This document shows, in pieces, positions 1-15,179 of a stretch of DNA of 32,359 bases (positions are counted from its first letter, which is position 1; every line of letters starts with the position of its first letter). Under the pieces are notes generated by a model. That model worked only from the letters and a program-made list of their open reading frames with translations. It was not told the DNA's origin and did not search any database. The stretch comes from Bradyrhizobium sp. (GTDB lineage: Bacteria; Pseudomonadota; Alphaproteobacteria; Rhizobiales; Xanthobacteraceae): contig NZ_JADGRI010000014.1 in NCBI RefSeq assembly GCF_017881085.1, positions 1-32,359 on the forward strand. The letters run 5' to 3'. The position numbers and the translations under genes were made by a program.

Positions 1-1560
1 AGCATCGCCACCGACGCCAAGGGCGTCATTCAGATCTTCAACGTCGGCGCCGAGCGGATGCTCGGCTACACCGCCGCCGACGTCATGAACAAGATCACGC
101 CGGCTGACATCTCCGATCCGCCGGAGCTGATCGCGCGCGCCAAGGCCTTGAGCGTCGAGTTTGCGACCCCGATCACGCCGGGCTTCGAGGCCCTGGTGTT
201 CAAGGCTTCGCGCGGGATCGAGGATATCTATGAGCTGACCTATATCCGCAAGGACGGCAGCCGGTTCGGAGCGGTGGTGTCGGTGACGGCGCTGCGCGAT
301 GCGCAGGACGTCATCATCGGCTATTTGCTGATCGGTACCGACAACACCGCGCGCCAGCAGGCGGAAGAGGCGCTGCTCAAGGCGGGGGCGCTGCAGAGCG
401 CGATCTTCAACAGCGCCAACTTCTCCAGCATCGCCACCGACGCCAAGGGCGTCATTCAGATTTTCAACGTCGGCGCCGAGCGGATGCTCGGCTACACCGC
501 TGCCGAAGTGATGAACAAGATCACGCCGGCCGACATCTCCGATCCGCAGGAGTTGATCGCGCGCGCCAAGGCGCTGAGCGTCGAACTCGGAACCCCGATC
601 ACGCCGGGTTTCGAGGCTCTGGTGTTCAAGGCCTCGCGCGGGATCGAGGATATCTACGAGCTGACCTATATCCGCAAGGATGGCAGCCGGTTCCCGGCGG
701 TGGTGTCGGTCACGGCGCTGCGCGATGCGCAGGACGCCATCATCGGCTATCTGCTGATTGGCACCGAGCTCAAGGCGGGGGCGTTGCAGAGCGCGATCTT
801 CAACAGCGCCAACTTCTCCAGCATTGCCACCGACGCCAAGGGCGTCATACAGATCTTCAATGTCGGCGCCGAGCGGATGCTCGGTTACACCGCTGCCGAA
901 GTGATGAACAAGATCACGCCGGCCGACATCTCCGATCCGCAGGAGTTGATCGCACGCGCCAAGGCGCTGAGCGTCGAACTCGGCACCACGATTGCGCCGG
1001 GGTTCGAGGCCCTGGTGTTCAAGGCCTCGCGCGGGATCGAGGACATCTACGAGCTGACCTATATCCGCAAGGATGGCAGCCGGTTCCCCGCAGTGGTGTC
1101 GGTCACGGCGCTGCGCGACGCACAGGACGCCATCATCGGTTATCTGCTGATTGGCACCGAGCTCAAGGCGGGGGCGCTGCAGAGCGCAATCTTCAACAGC
1201 GCCAATTTCTCCAGCATCGCCACCGACGCCAAGGGAGTCATTCAGATCTTCAACGTCGGCGCCGAGCGGATGCTTGGTTACGCCGCCGCCGACGTGATGA
1301 ACAAGATCACGCCGGCTGACATTTCCGATCCGCCGGAGCTGATCGCGCGCGCCAAGGCCTTGAGCGTCGAGTTCGCGACCCCGATCACGCCGGGCTTCGA
1401 GGCTCTGGTGTTCAAGGCCTCGCGCGGGATCGAGGACATCTACGAGCTGACCTATATCCGCAAGGATGGCAGCCGGTTCCCTGCGGTGGTGTCGGTCACG
1501 GCGCTGCGCGACGCGCAGGGCACCATCATCGGTTATCTGCTGATAGGCACCGACAACACC
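1..1560 (+). repeat. Tandem in-frame PAS-domain repeats, four copies (starting at 1, 427, 820, 1213; periods 426, 393, 393 nt)
   Basis: The string agcat(c/t)gccaccgacgccaag recurs at 1, 427, 820 and 1213, with near-identical nucleotide sequence between. The 33-nt difference in the first period is an 11-aa linker (DNTARQQAEEA) missing from copies 2 and 3. Confidence 0.95.
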
Positions 1561-3480
1561 GCGCGCAAGCTGGTCGAGGAAGAGCAAAAAAAGTCCGATC
1601 AACGCCTGCGCGACCAGCAATTCTACACCCGCTCGCTGATCGAATCCAACATCGACGCGATCATGACCACCGATCCGTCCGGCATCATCACCGACGTCAA
1701 CAAGCAGATGGAGGCGCTTACCGGCTGCACGCGCGATGAGTTGATCGGTGCGCCGTTCAAGGGATATTTCACCGATCCGGAGCGAGCCGAGGCGGCGATC
1801 AAGCGCGTGCTGAGCGAAAAGTCGGTCACCGACTACGAACTGACGGCGCGCGCGCGCGACGGCAAGCAGACGGTAGTGTCCTACAATGCGACCACCTTTT
1901 ACGACCGGAACCGTACGCTGCAGGGCGTTTTCGCCGCGGCGCGCGACGTCACGGAGCGCAAGCGTGTGGAGGCCGAACTGCAGCAGGCCAAGGCCGCCGC
2001 CGAGAGCGCGAGCCGGACCAAATCGGATTTTCTCGCGAGCATGAGTCATGAGATCCGGACGCCGATGAATGCGATCATGGGCATCGCCGATCTGCTCGCG
2101 AAGACGGCGCTCTCGCCGGAGCAGGACAAGTATGTGCAGATATTTCGCCGCGCCGGCGACAACCTGCTGAATCTCATCAACGACATCCTGGATCTCTCCA
2201 AGGTCGAAGCCTCACAGCTGGAGCTAGAGCGGACCGGCTTCTCGCTGAACGACCATTTGGAGAAGGTGACGGAGATGGTGGCGGCCCGGGCCGATGAAAA
2301 GGGGCTCTCCCTTGTCTGCGAGATCGCTCCGGATGTGCCCACCGACCTGGTTGGTGATCCGACACGGCTGCGGCAGGTGCTGCTCAACTTGATCGGAAAC
2401 GCGATCAAGTTCACGCAATCCGGCGGTGTGTCGCTGCGGGTCGCACCGGATGCGGATTCGTCCATTCCGACCGCATTGCGGTTCACCGTCTCGGACACCG
2501 GCATCGGTATTCCGGACGAGAAATTGGCGCGGGTGTTTGAACGCTTCACGCAAGCTGACTCGTCCACCACGCGCAGGTTCGGGGGCTCGGGGTTGGGGCT
2601 CACGATTTCGAAGCGGCTGGTGGAACTGATGGGTGGGCGTATCTGGGTCGAAAGTGAGGTCGGGAAAGGCAGCGTGTTTGCTTTTGCCGTGCCATTCGAG
2701 ATCTCGGCGACGGTTCACCGGCCGACGGTGGCGCCGATCGGGACGGGTCCGGAGCCGGCGCTGCCGGCGCTGCATATTCTTCTGGTCGAGGACTCCCCCG
2801 ACAACCGAACCATCACGATGGCCTATCTGGAGGACACGCCGTACCAGGTCGAAATTGCCGAAAATGGGGCCATCGCCTGCAAAAAGTTTACAGCGGGAAA
2901 CTATGACCTTGTCCTGATGGACCGGCAAATGCCGGTCATGGATGGCCTGACGGCGACGCGGGCGATTCGCGCGTGGGAACAAGCGAACGATCGGCCGCCC
3001 ACGCCGATCATCGCACTGACGGCCGCCGCCTTGAAGGGGGATCGAGAAAAGTGTCTGGCAGCCGGATGCACGGCTTTCCTGACAAAACCGATCAAACAGG
3101 ACGTGCTGCTGCAAGCGATCAAGGAGCACTCCCGGGTCGCGCTTACGCCATCGGAAGCGGAAGAAAGCCGGTTGGATCCGATCCTCCTGCGCGTGAAACC
3201 AACATTGGCAAACCGGATCCCTGCGTATCTGCTGAACTGCAGGCAGAACGTCGTGGTGATGCTGGACGCTTTGGATCGGGTCGACTTTGAGACCGTGACG
3301 AGTCTGGGGCACCAGATGAGGGGTTCCGGGGGCGCCTTCGGATTTCAGGCCATCACAGACATCGGCGCCGCGCTTCAGCAGGCTGGCGAGAGCGCCGACA
3401 GCGATGTGTCGCGCAAGTGGGTGGGGGAATTGTCCAACTTTCTGGACGGTATCGGCACCGATGTCCGCGTTGGGCCATAG
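1..3480 (+). CDS. Hybrid sensor histidine kinase (5'-truncated by window): at least 4 tandem PAS repeats + 1 divergent PAS + HisKA/HATPase + REC + Hpt
   Basis: Frame 1 is open from base 1 (SIATDAKGVIQIFNVGAERMLGY...), so the listed ATG at 58 is internal. Motifs: H-box FLASMSHEIRTPMNAIMG, DTGIGIP and GGSGLGL ATP-binding boxes, receiver LLVEDSPDNR...LMDRQMPVMDG...LTKPIK, C-terminal Hpt-like GHQMRGSGGAFGF. Confidence 0.95.
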   Translation, partial: SIATDAKGVIQIFNVGAERMLGYTAADVMNKITPADISDPPELIARAKALSVEFATPITPGFEALVFKASRGIEDIYELTYIRKDGSRFGAVVSVTALRDAQDVIIGYLLIGTDNTARQQAEEALLKAGALQSAIFNSANFSSIATDAKGVIQIFNVGAERMLGYTAAEVMNKITPADISDPQELIARAKALSVELGTPITPGFEALVFKASRGIEDIYELTYIRKDGSRFPAVVSVTALRDAQDAIIGYLLIGTELKAGALQSAIFNSANFSSIATDAKGVIQIFNVGAERMLGYTAAEVMNKITPADISDPQELIARAKALSVELGTTIAPGFEALVFKASRGIEDIYELTYIRKDGSRFPAVVSVTALRDAQDAIIGYLLIGTELKAGALQSAIFNSANFSSIATDAKGVIQIFNVGAERMLGYAAADVMNKITPADISDPPELIARAKALSVEFATPITPGFEALVFKASRGIEDIYELTYIRKDGSRFPAVVSVTALRDAQGTIIGYLLIGTDNTARKLVEEEQKKSDQRLRDQQFYTRSLIESNIDAIMTTDPSGIITDVNKQMEALTGCTRDELIGAPFKGYFTDPERAEAAIKRVLSEKSVTDYELTARARDGKQTVVSYNATTFYDRNRTLQGVFAAARDVTERKRVEAELQQAKAAAESASRTKSDFLASMSHEIRTPMNAIMGIADLLAKTALSPEQDKYVQIFRRAGDNLLNLINDILDLSKVEASQLELERTGFSLNDHLEKVTEMVAARADEKGLSLVCEIAPDVPTDLVGDPTRLRQVLLNLIGNAIKFTQSGGVSLRVAPDADSSIPTALRFTVSDTGIGIPDEKLARVFERFTQADSSTTRRFGGSGLGLTISKRLVELMGGRIWVESEVGKGSVFAFAVPFEISATVHRPTVAPIGTGPEPALPALHILLVEDSPDNRTITMAYLEDTPYQVEIAENGAIACKKFTAGNYDLVLMDRQMPVMDGLTATRAIRAWEQANDRPPTPIIALTAAALKGDREKCLAAGCTAFLTKPIKQDVLLQAIKEHSRVALTPSEAEESRLDPILLRVKPTLANRIPAYLLNCRQNVVVMLDALDRVDFETVTSLGHQMRGSGGAFGFQAITDIGAALQQAGESADSDVSRKWVGELSNFLDGIGTDVRVGP

Positions 3481-7151: not shown

Positions 7152-8786
7152 TCAGGTCCCGGGTCTCGAAACCTCGGTTTCCTTGGAGGTGATGAATTCC
7201 AGCAGCACCGGGATGCCTTCCCGGGTCTTCTGGATGCCGCGCTTAATCGCCGGGATGATATCTTCCGGTTTCGTCACGCGCTCGCCATGGCCGCCGAAGG
7301 CCCGTGCCATGGCGGCGTAGTCGCCGGAGATATCGGTGGAACGATATTTCTCGGTCGAAATCGGCATCACTTTCAATTCGATCGCCATGCTGAAATTGTT
7401 CAGGAGAATGGACATGATCGGGATCCGCTCGCGCACCGCCGTCTCGAAATCCATGCCGGTAAAGCCGATCGCGGCATCGCCCCAGACGTTGACGCAGAGC
7501 TTTTCCGGTTTTGCGAGTTTGGCGCCCATGGCGAGCCCGAGCCCATAGCCGAGCTGGGTGGTCTTGCCCCATCCGATATAAGACAGCGGCTCGACCGCCT
7601 TCCAGAACGGCGACAACTGGTCGCGCGGACTGCCGGCATCATGGGTGATGATGGTGTTGTGGATGTCGACGGCGTGCTGCAGATCCCAGAGCACGCGATA
7701 GGGATTCAACGGCGCGTCGTTGCTGGTGAGCTTCGGCATCCATTTCGCCAGCCACTCCTGATGCGAGGCGGCGATCTCGGCGGCGACGGCGGACGCGTCG
7801 CGGTCAGACGTCACGCTCTTGCCGATCTCCTCCAGCAGCGCGTCGAGAACCAGGGAAGCGTCACCAACCAGCCCGATCTGGGCCTCGACATCCTTGTTGA
7901 GATGCGCGGGGTCCAGCGTCGAATGGATGATGGTCTTGCCCTTCGGCATGGCGATGCCGAACGACGTCTCCGTGAACGAGCAGCCGATGCCGAAGATCAC
8001 GTCGGCCTGCTCCAGGAATTTCGGCACCGCGCGCGGGACCGCAAGCCCGCCTGAGCCGAGCGACAGCGGGTGCGTCTCCGGGAAGGACGATTTGCCGCCG
8101 AGGCTCGACGTGACGGGGATGGCGAGCCGTTCGGCGAGCCGCTTGAGCTGCGGCCATGCTTGCGCGTAATGTACGCCCTGGCCGGCATAGATCACCGGCC
8201 GCCTGGCCGAGATCAACAGCGCCGCCGCTTCCTTCACATGCACGGGATCGGCGCCGTAGCGGGTGCGCAGCACCGGGGTGTAGTTCAAGGGCTCCGGCAC
8301 TTCCTCGTTCCACATGTCGGCCGGGATTTCCACGATGACCGGTCCGCCGCGGCCGTTTTTCAACTTGGTGAAGGCGCGGCGGAAGATGTTGCCGACTTCG
8401 GCGGCGAGGTTGATCGGCTCGGAAGACTTCGAAAATGCCTTCATCGCCTGGCTGGAATTGAAGTTCGGATCGATATTGGCCAACCGCCGCGCATAGCCCA
8501 TCGGCAACACCAGCACCGGCACGGATTCGCCGTAGCATTGCGCCACGCCGCCCATGGCGTTTTCCGCGCCGGGGCCGTGCTGCATGCAGAACGCGCCGAT
8601 GCTGCGCCCGGAGGTCACGCGGGAGATCGCGTCCGCCATGTGCAGGCCGATACGCTCCTGGCGCACCATCACGGGACGGATGTCGGCATTGGCTGCATAT
8701 TCAATGAGGTGATTGACCGGATAGCCGCAGAGGATTTCGATTCCCTCGCGCCTCATGATTTCCGCGATCGCGGTACCGAGTTTCAT
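7152..8786 (-). CDS. Thiamine-pyrophosphate-requiring enzyme, acetolactate-synthase-like
   Basis: MKLGTAIAEIMRREGIEILCGYPVNHLIEY...QHGPGAENAMGGVAQCYGESVPVLVL; ThDP-binding region GDAAIGFTGMDFETAVRERIPIMSILLNN. Start moved to the ATG at 8786, which has GGGAGGAATAGGC just upstream; the ORF track start (8879) looks too long. Confidence 0.88.
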   Translation of the reverse strand: MKLGTAIAEIMRREGIEILCGYPVNHLIEYAANADIRPVMVRQERIGLHMADAISRVTSGRSIGAFCMQHGPGAENAMGGVAQCYGESVPVLVLPMGYARRLANIDPNFNSSQAMKAFSKSSEPINLAAEVGNIFRRAFTKLKNGRGGPVIVEIPADMWNEEVPEPLNYTPVLRTRYGADPVHVKEAAALLISARRPVIYAGQGVHYAQAWPQLKRLAERLAIPVTSSLGGKSSFPETHPLSLGSGGLAVPRAVPKFLEQADVIFGIGCSFTETSFGIAMPKGKTIIHSTLDPAHLNKDVEAQIGLVGDASLVLDALLEEIGKSVTSDRDASAVAAEIAASHQEWLAKWMPKLTSNDAPLNPYRVLWDLQHAVDIHNTIITHDAGSPRDQLSPFWKAVEPLSYIGWGKTTQLGYGLGLAMGAKLAKPEKLCVNVWGDAAIGFTGMDFETAVRERIPIMSILLNNFSMAIELKVMPISTEKYRSTDISGDYAAMARAFGGHGERVTKPEDIIPAIKRGIQKTREGIPVLLEFITSKETEVSRPGT

Positions 8787-8922: not shown

Positions 8923-10521
8923 TCAGGCGGATCCCTCCAGCGCGCGCCGCAGCCGGCGGATGATGACGCCGCGGGCGCGGTCATCGGCTGCGGCCCCTAT
9001 CTGATCGTTGATGTCGAGCACCAGTTTCGACATCTCATTGTGCCAGTCGAGATGCGTTACCGCTTCGGGCGCAAGCCGGCGGCGGTGCGCGACATCCATG
9101 AGCGTGGGCGCGGGCGTCGAAAGCTCGTAAATGTCGTCCAGCAGCGGCTGAAACAGTTTCGCCGCCGGAATGACCCGCCCGGCGAGGCGCTCGGCCAGAG
9201 CTGCGATCGCGGCCTCTTCGCCGTGAACGAGGAATACGCCTTTTTCAATCGGGCGGCGCGCGGCGACCCATCCCGCGATTTCATTGCCATCGGCATGGCC
9301 TGAATATTCGTCGATCATGCGGATGCGCGCGGCTACCTTGATCTCCTCGCCCTGGATACGAACGGCCTTGGCGCCATCCTGGAGAAATCGGCCGAGGGTG
9401 CCGTTGGCCTGATAGCCGACCAGCAGCACGGTGGCGCGGTCGTTCCACAGCCAGCGTTTGAGATGATGCCGGATGCGGCCGGCGTCGCACATGCCGCTGG
9501 CGGCGATGATGATGTGAAAGCCAGTCAGCTTGGCGATCGATTTGCTCTCGTCGACGGTCTCGGTGAACCGCAGATGCGGCGAGTCGAACAGGCGGTTGAC
9601 ATCGATATCCCGATCGAGGCTCGCGGCATGTTTGCGGAACACCTCGGTGGCGTGAATTGCCAGCGGCGAATCGAGAAAAATCGGCGCCGCCGGCACTTCA
9701 CCGCGCTCCATCAGGTCGACCAGATCGACGATCAGTTCCTGAGTGCGTTCGACCGCGAAGGCGGGGATGAGCAGGGCGCCCTTTGAGCTAGCGGCGTCGC
9801 GGACCTCGGCGGCGAGATGCTGACGGCGTTCTTCCGGCGTGGTTATCGCGCGAATCCGGTCGCCATAGGTCGATTCCGAAATCACGTAGTCGAAGCCCGC
9901 CGGTGCCTTCGGGTCGGGCTCGAGCAGTTTGGCGTCGGGGCCGACATCGCCCGACGCGAGCAGTCGCAGCGGCTTGCCGGAAGAACCTTCGCCGTCGAAC
10001 TCGATTTCGATCGAGGCCGATCCGAGCAGGTGACCGGCGTTCCAGTAACGCGCGCGGACCCCCGGCATCACGTTGACCCAGGTCTCGTATTCGACCGGCT
10101 GGAATGACTGCAGCGAAGCAATCGCATCGGCCTGGGTGTAGATCGGGCTCACCTCGGACCGCCCACGCGCCGCATTGCGCCGGTTCAGCGCAACGACTTC
10201 CGATTCCTGGATGCTGCCGGCATCCGGCAGCATGTAGGAACAGAGGTCGATGGTTCCACGCGTCGCCAGAATCCTGCCACGGAAACCTTCGCGCACCAGC
10301 TTCGGCAGTAGCCCGCTATGGTCGATATGGGCATGCGTCAGCAGCACGCGATCGACCTCGGCGGGCCGGAACGGGAAGGCGTGATAGTTGAGCTCCTTCA
10401 GGGTCTTTTGCCCCTGGAACAGGCCGCAATCGATCAGGAAACGCCCGGACGGCGTTCCGACGAGGTAACACGAACCCGTCACCGTGTGCGCCGCGCCGCA
10501 AAATCGAACCGTCACGCTCAT
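8923..10521 (-). CDS. MBL-fold beta-CASP metallo-hydrolase (putative RNase / RNA-processing exonuclease family)
   Basis: [21 protein letters not shown]...LLTHAHIDHSGLLPKL...NAGHLLGSASIEIEF...PAFAVERTQELIVDL...ASGMCDAGRIRHHLKRWL...VHGEEAAIAAL. True start is the ATG at 10521, overlapping the prs-like stop by 4 nt. The ORF track extension to 11172 is antisense-like read-through in another frame of the prs-like gene. Confidence 0.9.
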   Translation of the reverse strand: MSVTVRFCGAAHTVTGSCYLVGTPSGRFLIDCGLFQGQKTLKELNYHAFPFRPAEVDRVLLTHAHIDHSGLLPKLVREGFRGRILATRGTIDLCSYMLPDAGSIQESEVVALNRRNAARGRSEVSPIYTQADAIASLQSFQPVEYETWVNVMPGVRARYWNAGHLLGSASIEIEFDGEGSSGKPLRLLASGDVGPDAKLLEPDPKAPAGFDYVISESTYGDRIRAITTPEERRQHLAAEVRDAASSKGALLIPAFAVERTQELIVDLVDLMERGEVPAAPIFLDSPLAIHATEVFRKHAASLDRDIDVNRLFDSPHLRFTETVDESKSIAKLTGFHIIIAASGMCDAGRIRHHLKRWLWNDRATVLLVGYQANGTLGRFLQDGAKAVRIQGEEIKVAARIRMIDEYSGHADGNEIAGWVAARRPIEKGVFLVHGEEAAIAALAERLAGRVIPAAKLFQPLLDDIYELSTPAPTLMDVAHRRRLAPEAVTHLDWHNEMSKLVLDINDQIGAAADDRARGVIIRRLRRALEGSA

Positions 10522-11438
10522 GTTGTCGTCTCCGGAAAAGTTGCGCCGTTTATTTCGCCTTGCAGCGCTGCGGCGAAGATATCGTCGAGCGGGATCGCAT
10601 TGGTGGGATGCGGCACGCTGGATGTCGAGCGGATGGAACGAATGCCGGCCTTTGCAAAACCGACAGCCATGCCGGAGGGAAACAGCGCGTGGGTCACGAC
10701 GGCGTCCACCGCCGTGGCGCCTGCCGCGATCAGCGCCCTGGCGCAGGTCATCAGGGTGCCGCCGGAGGAGACGATATCGTCGACCAGCAGCACCGGCCGG
10801 CCCGCGATCAACGCGGCCTCCGCAAAGCTGATTTCGACGGAGCGATCGCCGCGGCGAATCTTCTGCGCAACGATATGCGCCAGCCCGAGTTGGCCGGCGA
10901 GATCGCTCACCCAGGGCCGCGACTCCGCGTCTGGACCGGCCACGATGGTTGCGGGATCGATCCCGGTCAGGCGCAGCGCGCCGGCAATCGCCGGCATCGC
11001 CGACAGGTTGTCGGCCTCGATGCCGGGAAAGACCGCCTTGATGTCGGTGGTGCGATGAAGATGGGCGTCGACCGTGATCACGCGGTCCACTATTCCCGCG
11101 ATCAGCCGGCCGACCGCCTTCTGGCTGATTGCTTCGCCTTCGCTGAAGGCTTTGTCCTGCCGCATGTAGCAAAGATAGGGCGCTACCAGTACCAAGCGCC
11201 TGGCGTCCGCCCGCCGCAACGCTTCGGCGGCGAACAGGAGGGCAATCAGCTTGTCATTCGGCTGATCGAGCGAGGCATAGATGATCGTGGTCGAGGCGGC
11301 ATTCCCGACCGTCACCCGGACTTCCCCGTCGGGAAACCGGTGCAAGGCTATTTCCTGCGAGCCAACGCCAAGTCGACCCGCCAGCCGCCGCGCATCGGCG
11401 ACACCGGATGGCAGGCACTGGATGGCGACCTTGTTCAT
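10518..11438 (-). CDS. Ribose-phosphate pyrophosphokinase (PRPP synthetase) family protein
   Basis: [30 protein letters not shown] (PRPP synthetase signature region), [26 protein letters not shown]-binding loop [21 protein letters not shown]. Confidence 0.92.
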
Positions 11439-12967
11439 GGCGTGACCTGGCCGCGTTTTTCGATCGCATAGCCGGTATCGATCTTCGCTCCGGCTGCCGC
11501 AAGATCTTGTTCCGATTGATCAAAGGCATAAACCCGGTACAGCGGTTCGCCGCTTTCGACGCGGTCGCCGATCTTCTTGAACAGTCTTATGCCGGCTCCC
11601 TTGTCGAGGGGCGCGCCCGCCGTCCGCGCCAGCCGGTTCAACTGCAGACAATCGATACCCGCGACGACGCCATCGCTTCCGGCCTTCACATCGAAAGTCA
11701 TGTTGCCCAAATCGGTGCGGCAGCTCGCCGGCCCCTGCGCATCGATGATCCTTTGCATCTGCTTGAGCGCCGCCCCGCTATCGAGCAGCTCGCGGGCGCG
11801 GGCATAGCCCGTTCCGCCGCGCAGCTTCGGATCGTATTCCAGCAGATGCGCGGCGAGCCGCAGCGACTTTTCGCGCAGGTCCCTCGGCGCGGCGGGGTCG
11901 TTGGCCAGAACAGCCATCACGTCCTCGGCTTCGAGCACCGGACCGATACCGTTGCCGATCGGCTGGCGGCCGTCCGTAATGATCACCTCCACCGCGATGC
12001 CGAAGCGATCGCCGACGAACTCGAACAGCTTGCGCAGCCTCATGGCTTCCGTGCCATTGGTGAGCTTGGCGGTCGGGCCGACCGGCAGATCGATCAGCAG
12101 ATGGGTCGAACCGGCGGCGAGTTTCTTGGACATGATCGAGGCCACCATCTGCTCGCGCGTATCGAGGCTGAGCGGGCGCTCCACGGAGATCAGGATATCG
12201 TCGGCCGGCGACAGGTTGACGTGGCCGCCCCAGATCAAACAGCCATTGCAGGCCGCGACGATGGCCTTCATCTCGTCGACGCCGACGTTGACGCGCGCCA
12301 ATACTTCCATCGTGTCCGCGGTGCCGGCCGGAGACGTAATGGCCCGCGAAGAAGTCTTCGGGATGGTGAGCCCGTGCGCCGCAACGATCGGCACCACGAT
12401 CATCGACGTCCGATTCCCGGGGATTCCGCCGATGCAGTGCTTGTCGACGACGATCGGGTCGGCCCATTTCAGCTGCGTTCCCGCCTCGGCCATCGCGCGG
12501 GTGAGGGCGATCAGCTCGTCGCTCGTCATGAAACTGGCGGAGCTAATCAGGAAGGCGGCAATCTCCATGTCGGAGTACCGGTAGTGGGTAAGATCGTTGA
12601 CGATGGCAGTGATCTCCCGAGCGCTCAGGGTCTGGCCGCGGATTTTGGCGCGTACCGCTTCGAGACTCTCCGGGGGCGTCGCCGGCGTGACCGTCACGAG
12701 GTGACCGGCAGGTTCGGCGAAGCGCCGGAATGCCGGTTCGGAAAGGCCGATTTCGTGGGGCCCCACCAGGGCGTCGTCATCCGTGATGAGAAGGGTGGCG
12801 AGCAGCACCTTTGAATCCCGGCGGAGTTCGACCCGGCTGAATCCTCGAAAGATCTCCGCGCGGAGCGCCTTCGACTGCCGCGAAATGACCACGACGTTCT
12901 CGCGTCCGGTATCGAGATTGACGCTTCGAATTTGGAGTTGCGGACGGAATGTGTCGACGGAGTTCAT
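11435..12967 (-). CDS. Thymidine phosphorylase family protein, AMP-phosphorylase-like
   Basis: [55 protein letters not shown]...[24 protein letters not shown]...[24 protein letters not shown] is the pyrimidine/AMP phosphorylase signature region. ATG at 12967 preferred over the ORF-track TTG at 13036. Confidence 0.88.
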
Positions 12968-13027: not shown

Positions 13028-13041
13028 TTGACCCAAATCAT
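13028..13041 (-). promoter_or_regulatory. Putative FixK/FNR-type binding site upstream of the phosphorylase-prs-MBL unit
   Basis: Plus strand TTGACCCAAATCAT (minus ATGATTTGGGTCAA) against FNR/FixK consensus TTGAT-N4-ATCAA (8/10). The centre is about 68 nt from the start codon. Confidence 0.4.
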
Positions 13042-13561: not shown

Positions 13562-13726
13562 ATGCGGCAGCTGTTTTCAAGATTCCTGGCCGATCAATCC
13601 GGCGCGACGGCCATCGAGTATTGCCTGATCGCGGTCGGGCTGAGCATCGTGATCATCACTGCCGTCAATGGCATCGGATCCACCCTCAACACGAGGTTCA
13701 CCTCCGTGAATTCGTCGCTGAAATAG
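13562..13726 (+). CDS. Flp/Fap type IVb pilin component, 54 aa (missed by 60-aa ORF cutoff)
   Basis: MRQLFSRFLADQSGATAIEYCLIAVGLSIVIITAVNGIGSTLNTRFTSVNSSLK*: GATAIEY prepilin processing motif followed by a hydrophobic segment. Confidence 0.9.
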   Translation: MRQLFSRFLADQSGATAIEYCLIAVGLSIVIITAVNGIGSTLNTRFTSVNSSLK

Positions 13727-14034: not shown

Positions 14035-14994
14035 CTATCCGGCCTTCTTCGAGCGGGCCGCCGGCGTGCGCGCCGGCTTTTCCGCCTTCTTCGACTCCTG
14101 AACCCTTGGCTCTTCCTTGGCGCGCTTGCCGCTGATCGGCAGCAGCATCTCGCGCTGGCCGGAAGCGGCCTTGCGCGGCTTCTTGCCTCTTGTCTTGGCG
14201 GCAGGCGGGGCCTGCCGCTCGCTGGCGAGGCTCTTCTTCAGCGCGTCCATCAGATTGATGACATTGCCGGCGGTCTTCGGCGCGGCTTTCGCGGTCAGGC
14301 GAACGCCGCTGCGTTTCCTGTTGATGAGATCGATCAGCGCGGATTCATAGTGATCCTCGAACTTTTCGGGCTCGAATGCGCCGGATTTCTTCTCGACGAT
14401 ATGCTTGGCGAGATCCAGCATATCCTTGGTGACCTTCACGTCCTGAATGTCGTCGAAATAATCCTTCTCGCTGCGTACCTCGTAGGGGTAGCGCAACAGC
14501 GTTCCCATCAGGCCCTTGCCGAGCGGATCCAGCGCGATGATGTGCTCGCGGTTAGTCAGCACCACGCGGCCGATCGCGACCTTGTTCATGCTGCGGATGG
14601 TTTCGCGGATCACCGCGAAGGCGTCATGGCCGACCTTGCCGTCGGGCACGAGATAATAGGGGCGGATCAGATAGCGGCTGTCGATGTCGGTCCTGGGTAC
14701 GAACTCGTCGATCTCGATGGTGTGCGTCGATTCCAGCGCGATATCGTCGAGTTCGTCCTTCGACACCTCGATATAGGTGTCGGTATCGACCTTGTAGCCC
14801 TTCACGATGTCATCGGAAGCGACTTCCTCCCCGGTGTCGGCATCGACCTTGGCGTATTTGATGCGGTGGCCGGTCTTGCGGTTGATCTGGTTGAAGCTGA
14901 CCTTTTCGCTGTCCGACGTCGCCGGGTAAAGGGCAACCGGGCAGGTCACGAGCGAAAGGCGCAGGAAGCCTTTCCAGTTGGCGCGGGGGGCCAT
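14035..14994 (-). CDS. ku: Ku protein (bacterial non-homologous end joining)
   Basis: MAPRANWKGFLRLSLVTCPVALYPATSDSEKVSFNQINRKTGHRIKYAKVDADTGEEV...YLIRPYYLVPDGKVGHDAFAVIRETI with a Lys/Arg/Ala-rich C-terminal tail. Start moved from 15054 to the ATG at 14994. Confidence 0.95.
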   Translation of the reverse strand: MAPRANWKGFLRLSLVTCPVALYPATSDSEKVSFNQINRKTGHRIKYAKVDADTGEEVASDDIVKGYKVDTDTYIEVSKDELDDIALESTHTIEIDEFVPRTDIDSRYLIRPYYLVPDGKVGHDAFAVIRETIRSMNKVAIGRVVLTNREHIIALDPLGKGLMGTLLRYPYEVRSEKDYFDDIQDVKVTKDMLDLAKHIVEKKSGAFEPEKFEDHYESALIDLINRKRSGVRLTAKAAPKTAGNVINLMDALKKSLASERQAPPAAKTRGKKPRKAASGQREMLLPISGKRAKEEPRVQESKKAEKPARTPAARSKKAG

Positions 14995-15179
14995 GGGATA
15001 CTCCAAAACGCAACAGACGACCCGCAAGGATACCACCGAGGGACCGGCTTTCAAAGCGACGAGGCAGGGAAACTCGCGACGGAGTTAACCCTGGCTGGAA
15101 CGGGTGAGGGACGAGGCAGACCGGCGCCGCAGCAGCTCCCGGGTCGGCGCGTTCGGGGAACCGCAGGCCGCCGAAACCC

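Follow-up and report, generated by a model that had tools for sequence, protein, structure and literature searches.

Ribose-1,5-bisphosphate (R15P) metabolism is known from two settings: archaea, where it belongs to the nucleoside monophosphate (NMP) phosphorylase pathway, and the degradation of phosphonates, which involves the enzyme PhnN. The system studied here is a trio of joined genes in a 32,359-nucleotide stretch of a Bradyrhizobium sp. genome (assembly GCF_017881085.1, contig NZ_JADGRI010000014.1, positions 1 to 32,359; hereafter the window), encoding a relative of the archaeal AMP phosphorylase, a protein resembling phosphoribosyl pyrophosphate (PRPP) synthetase (PRS) and a beta-CASP ribonuclease-like protein. 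The archaeal phosphorylase is partnered by an R15P isomerase and ribulose-1,5-bisphosphate carboxylase/oxygenase (RuBisCO), whereas the partner of the bacterial enzyme is either the PRS-like protein, of subfamily PRK07199, or PhnN. On balance, we consider it rather probable that the trio is an oxygen-limited nucleotide-recycling operon, in which NMPs are converted to R15P and R15P is passed on to PRK07199. The operon and its oxygen control are already known from expression data in B. diazoefficiens; the partnership of the phosphorylase with PRK07199, the exchange of the latter for PhnN and its resulting predicted role as an R15P enzyme are new. In B. diazoefficiens, the genes bll3117-bll3116-bll3115 are preceded by the box ATGATCTGGGTCAA at -74, and deletion of fixK2 lowers bll3117 6.6-fold and bll3115 30.6-fold (PMC9104804); all three are up at 0.5% O2, at both the protein and the transcript level (PMC6515984). 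PhnN makes PRPP from R15P (PMC11452294, PMC9700705). The features of the locus in the window are the following:

11435..12967, minus strand: NMP-phosphorylase-like enzyme of 510 amino acids (TIGR02645), whose relatives are annotated 'thymidine phosphorylase family protein'
10518..11438, minus strand: PRPP-synthetase-like protein of 306 amino acids, PRK07199 subfamily (NF005537), the proposed R15P-consuming partner
8923..10521, minus strand: beta-CASP metallo-beta-lactamase (MBL) ribonuclease-like protein of 532 amino acids with an RMMBL domain, closest solved structure TTHA0252
11435..11438, minus strand: 4-base ATGA stop/start overlap between the phosphorylase and PRS-like genes
10518..10521, minus strand: 4-base ATGA stop/start overlap between the PRS-like and beta-CASP genes
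13028..13041, minus strand: FixK/FNR-type box ATGATTTGGGTCAA, at about -70 (some 60-75 nt before the phosphorylase start)

The window is part of one contig of a fragmented host assembly (5.36 Mb, 494 contigs, 89.9% complete). The first-pass annotation, made from its sequence alone, had described three minus-strand genes coupled by ATGA overlaps, and all their coordinates and both four-base joints were recovered. The trio is real, and chance does not account for its close spacing: many relatives show the same -4 overlap between the first two genes, and most others have a short gap or none. Of 30 fetched loci, 29 have the two genes side by side on one strand, usually overlapping or at most 25 bases apart; the single exception is a second phosphorylase copy, and the other copy in that genome is paired. 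In 80 additional named loci of alpha-, beta- and gammaproteobacterial origin, the two genes are adjacent in 71. In all, phosphorylases over the cut-off were found in 43 of 399 Pseudomonadota genomes, including four more of the window's genus, and most of the relatives at 82-84% identity come from Bradyrhizobium. The triplet is conserved in the window's order in 31 of the 80 named loci; six others have the phosphorylase and MBL genes without the PRS-like gene, and in most gammaproteobacterial loci the surroundings of the pair lack an MBL gene. Thus, the conserved core unit is the phosphorylase-PRS pair and the beta-CASP ribonuclease is mainly an alphaproteobacterial addition. On a Legionella anisa plasmid (L159), the genes directly after the pair form an F-type ATP synthase operon that begins with atpD.

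The distribution of PRK07199 was compared between 42 phosphorylase-positive and 38 phosphorylase-negative Pseudomonadota genomes, the latter taken from the same families where possible and chosen before their PRS status was known. Counting the matches over the cut-off and one adjacent match just below it (G285), PRK07199 is present in 39/42 positive and 0/38 negative genomes (p about 1e-19, uncorrected for phylogeny). Each of these 80 genomes also contains a further PRS match, as a rule an ordinary full-length gene at 130-160 bits, of which the fragmented host assembly holds only pieces. In the three positive genomes that lack PRK07199 (G308, G383 and G393), PhnN is encoded in the open frame of the phosphorylase. 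PhnN is N-terminal in these fusions and in a fourth one (G249, locus L131), one continuous protein can be read (for instance at L128 7619-9775 and L129 7331-9433), and both TIGR02322 and PRK04350 are matched over their cut-offs, in L131 as well. The gene nadC lies directly upstream, on the same strand, in all four fusion loci, and the order nadC-phnN::phosphorylase is also found on plasmids of Variovorax sp. SRS16 and Pacificitalea manganoxidans. These nadC and fusion genes occupy L128 7619-10616, L129 6470-9433, L130 7659-10681, L131 6425-9080, L138 5159-8154 and L140 5125-8091, and several such loci add transporter or substrate-binding genes. The adjacency of nadC and phnN has been noted near Bordetella Bug27 homologues, in a text whose consulted parts do not mention the phosphorylase portion (PMC11452294).

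Nine of the named loci lack an adjacent PRS-like gene. Three of them have PRK07199 elsewhere (G401 at 321.3 bits for a cut-off of 322), and the remaining six all have PhnN over the cut-off, three of them without carbon-phosphorus (C-P) lyase genes within 7 kb; the stand-alone PhnN genes of G404, G405 and G407 have no telling neighbours. Altogether, PhnN is present in 9/9 PRK07199-negative versus 13/47 PRK07199-positive phosphorylase genomes (p = 7e-5) and, outside the window's family, in 7/7 versus 6/40 (p = 3e-5), in tests that ignore phylogeny and count three fusions among the nine negatives. In the phosphorylase tree, two groups of PRS-linked phosphorylases (support 81-100) enclose the PhnN fusions (support 100), and partners were therefore swapped within one family. 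Since it is exchangeable with PhnN, PRK07199 probably replaces it as the R15P consumer and may well be an R15P enzyme under a wrong annotation. The role proposed for it, the conversion of R15P to PRPP, is that of PhnN in the phosphonate pathway of E. coli, and PhnN is itself fused to sister phosphorylases; yet PhnN has a guanylate-kinase-like fold, unrelated to the PRS fold of PRK07199, whose activity is a prediction.

The phosphorylase matches positions 1-492 of the 493 of TIGR02645 with 734.3 bits (cut-off 434.6) and belongs to the TIGR02645/PRK04350 family. The equivalog or subfamily models of DeoA and pyrimidine nucleoside phosphorylase (PyNP) all remain under their cut-offs (203 vs 269, 200 vs 409 and 153 vs 571 bits), and the nearest solved structure is the AMP phosphorylase of Thermococcus kodakarensis (350 bits, against 137 bits for a pyrimidine nucleoside phosphorylase). 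The likeness to this archaeal enzyme (TK0352; PDB 4ga5/4ga6) runs over the full length, including the N-terminal domain, and both share the loop signature GG[IVL]PG[NS]R + SSRA[IV]TSxAGTAD, absent from PyNP and DeoA; nevertheless, the window's enzyme belongs to a bacterial clade and falls short of the cut-off of the AMP-phosphorylase equivalog. The assignment to an AMP-phosphorylase-like rather than a DeoA-like enzyme, already made in the first-pass annotation, is borne out by the model scores, the closest structure, the loop signature and the tree. The residue cited there as fitting it, a P in place of the T/A of the signature, was rejected as a marker: the solved T. kodakarensis enzyme has A at this position, and among archaeal and PhnN-fused relatives either letter is found. 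As the substrate of PhnN is R15P and the phosphorylase is fused to PhnN, the family should split NMPs rather than nucleosides, in agreement with the loop signature. The phosphorylase is of the archaeal AMP-phosphorylase kind; it very probably splits NMPs and most likely releases R15P. One relative (G255; locus L132, 5096-6970, 6948-8510 and 8749-9549) has a phosphorylase frame that looks broken, its match spanning only model positions 41-335, next to a divergent beta-CASP gene and a CRP/FNR-type regulator. The literature searches returned neither a characterised bacterial NMP phosphorylase nor a phosphorylase-PRK07199 pair, although the Hove-Jensen review of R15P may mention either; the text of the paper on the Burkholderia lxa locus mentions no phosphorylase or pyrophosphokinase.

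The PRS-like protein matches PRK07199/NF005537, named ribose-phosphate diphosphokinase by NCBI, with 375.4 bits (cut-off 322). Its AlphaFold2 model (predicted local distance difference test, pLDDT, 92.5) has the PRS fold, with TM-scores of 0.80-0.85 to solved PRS. The PRS residues binding the nucleotide and ribose-5-phosphate (R5P) are kept (F35, D37, E39, R93, Q94, H126, R195, D220, D221 and T228), and most active-site residues are shared with PRS such as E. coli Prs and the M. jannaschii enzyme (1u9y). In contrast, the pyrophosphate (PPi) loop PDxG[GA] of PRS is replaced by PDxES, with a Glu (E172) in 29/29 sequences where PRS has Gly, and further invariant residues are H128 and R129, a His-Arg beside or after the catalytic His, and D198 in the flexible loop. 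PRK07199 also differs from PRS in being found only with the phosphorylase, as an additional gene and not as the housekeeping PRS. The third protein has Beta-Casp and RMMBL domains, and its MBL motifs are HAHIDH (63), AGHLLGSA (162), SGDVG (190), ESTYGDR (216) and SGHAD (407). It shares its MBL, beta-CASP and RMMBL layout and the metal motifs with the ribonuclease TTHA0252 (PDB 2dkf, 3iek), but has about 80 extra C-terminal residues and is encoded in an operon with nucleotide enzymes.

The box upstream of the phosphorylase is identical in 13 of 14 positions to the FixK2 box published for bll3117 (PMC9104804). The bll3117-bll3116-bll3115 operon of the FixK2 regulon, induced in microoxia, has the same three annotations in the same order and a near-identical box at a near-identical distance; its orthology to the trio is deduced from the identical product annotation, the gene order and the box. 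In the consulted parts of the two reports, it is known only as expression data and no function is proposed for it (PMC6515984, PMC9104804). The trio also occurs in other Bradyrhizobium loci. A FixK/FNR-like box with at least 7/8 core bases is present at a similar distance in 12/14 close Bradyrhizobium-like relatives (0.57 expected), and in 18/66 more distant ones (3.6 expected). By analogy with the FixK2-dependent expression of the B. diazoefficiens genes, the trio of the window would belong to a microoxic FixK2-type regulon.

Every enzymatic step of the operon is inferred. In the proposed mechanism, a FixK2-type regulator would turn the operon on at low oxygen, as the regulation and gene order of its relatives suggest. 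The beta-CASP protein would cut or trim RNA into pieces with 5'-phosphates and finally into 5'-NMPs, and the phosphorylase very probably converts NMP and phosphate into free base and R15P. PRK07199 would then consume R15P, most likely as PhnN does (R15P + ATP -> PRPP + ADP). In a variant, it would catalyse R15P + AMP <-> R5P + ADP, which is PRPP-synthetase chemistry minus one phosphate and leads straight to the neighbouring phosphoketolase; the sequence cannot tell these two reactions apart. In the nadC clusters, we propose a closed cycle in which quinolinate and PRPP yield nicotinate mononucleotide (NaMN), NaMN and phosphate yield nicotinate and R15P, and R15P and ATP restore PRPP; the nadC and PhnN-phosphorylase genes look like a cassette for PRPP recycling from quinolinate to nicotinate. 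The chances seem about even for the broader proposal, in which PRK07199 is a new enzyme class, a PRS relative turned into an R15P enzyme (a kinase yielding PRPP or an R15P:AMP phosphotransferase yielding R5P) exchangeable with PhnN, which with the phosphorylase forms a widespread bacterial low-oxygen salvage from NMP to R15P, the PhnN fusion and nadC closing the PRPP cycle.

Several observations weigh against the recycling of NMPs through R15P and PRK07199. The phosphorylase scores 500.1 bits against TIGR03327, the AMP-phosphorylase equivalog, below the cut-off of 535, and no published activity was found, in the literature searched, for any enzyme of its bacterial clade. The PhnN fusions adjoin nadC, so the substrate may be NaMN rather than AMP, CMP or UMP. 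Shared ancestry makes the partner counts non-independent, PhnN is frequent in Bradyrhizobium in any case, where it lies in C-P lyase operons, and the ribonuclease gene is missing near most gammaproteobacterial pairs. Moreover, with the catalytic residues of PRS retained, PRK07199 may be nothing other than a PRS. It would then make PRPP and AMP from R5P and ATP, perhaps under low oxygen, the phosphorylase removing that AMP or supplying bases and R15P being used elsewhere. The fold, the conserved residues and the NCBI name speak for such an ordinary enzyme, which we nevertheless find rather unlikely: each of the 80 genomes has another PRS match, PRK07199 never occurs among them without the phosphorylase, the PPi-loop Gly has become an invariant Glu, the exchange is for PhnN and not for another PRS, and R15P would be left without a consumer in many PhnN-less genomes. 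The R15P:AMP reaction, taken as a link between NMP phosphorolysis and pentose-phosphate fermentation by phosphoketolase and acetate kinase, is unlikely as well. In its favour, the reaction is the chemistry of PRS less one phosphate, and the Glu of the PPi loop might occlude the site of the gamma-phosphate. Phosphoketolase-acetate kinase belongs to the FixK2 targets of B. diazoefficiens (PMC9104804), and phosphoketolase genes are found at most 3 kb from the phosphorylase in G076, G293 and G003 and twice in G154. Similarly, the Criblamydia cluster adds phosphoketolase and acetate kinase, and that of Rhizobium rosettiformans has a phosphoketolase-sized neighbour annotated as a xylulose-5-phosphate enzyme. 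Yet the association is weak overall (14/42 phosphorylase-positive versus 6/38 negative genomes, p = 0.08), and a dependable phosphoketolase link was rejected; the apparent substitute, PhnN, makes PRPP and not R5P, and ADP formation should be disfavoured at equilibrium. Universal stress proteins occur in the clusters of B. septentrionale and of the archaeal Natrialba, and such neighbours, like phosphoketolase and acetate kinase, fit an energy-limited life.

The archaeal-type route, from AMP through R15P and ribulose-1,5-bisphosphate to RuBisCO, had been evoked in the first-pass annotation. The host does carry a RuBisCO large-subunit gene and the phosphorylase resembles its archaeal counterpart, but this route is highly improbable and the coupling was rejected, since phosphorylase-positive and negative genomes do not differ in RuBisCO (21/42 versus 19/38) or in proteins of the IF-2B family (22/42 versus 18/38). 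No R15P isomerase (TIGR00511) was found in the 89.9% complete host assembly, where the only IF-2B homologue detected is MtnA, at 126.6 bits for a cut-off of 314 in the isomerase model. Finally, a plain DeoA-like operon for the salvage of thymidine or pyrimidine nucleosides, as the public annotation 'thymidine phosphorylase family protein' would have it, is scarcely credible given the DeoA and PyNP scores far under cut-off, the NMP-type signature and the fusion to PhnN, whose substrate is R15P. The earlier picture of a nucleotide turnover module is thus partly supported: the module is plausible and its link to PRPP is supported, the isomerase/RuBisCO route is not, the unit is the pair rather than the triplet, and the fate of R15P suggested by the PhnN fusions and the published FixK2 regulation at low oxygen had been missed.

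Other genes surround the trio in the window. A thiamine-diphosphate enzyme (PRK06154, 933 bits) lies just downstream on the minus strand, at 7152-8786 or 8879, after a gap of 43-136 bp; it is probably not part of the operon because it is several kb away in L043. On the other side are a bacterial Ku (TIGR02772, 293 bits; 14035-15054, minus strand) and a small unlisted gene (13562-13726, plus strand) whose 54-amino-acid product, MRQLFSRFLADQSGATAIEYCLIAVGLSIVIITAVNGIGSTLNTRFTSVNSSLK, resembles a Flp-type pilin. Positions 375-1553 consist of three 393-bp tandem repeats that are almost the same (93% matches) and encode repeated PAS-like sensor units within a hybrid histidine kinase (58-3480), probably a recent internal duplication.

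If the proposed recycling of NMPs through R15P is correct, alpha-, beta- and gammaproteobacteria, as well as a plasmid of a chlamydia relative, would encode a common low-oxygen R15P pathway masked by the labels 'thymidine phosphorylase' and 'ribose-phosphate pyrophosphokinase'. Such a pathway would give a chemical meaning to the nadC-phnN neighbourhood near the Bordetella Bug27 homologues, and it would provide the operon that is strongly induced by microoxia in B. diazoefficiens with a function that can be tested with two purified proteins.

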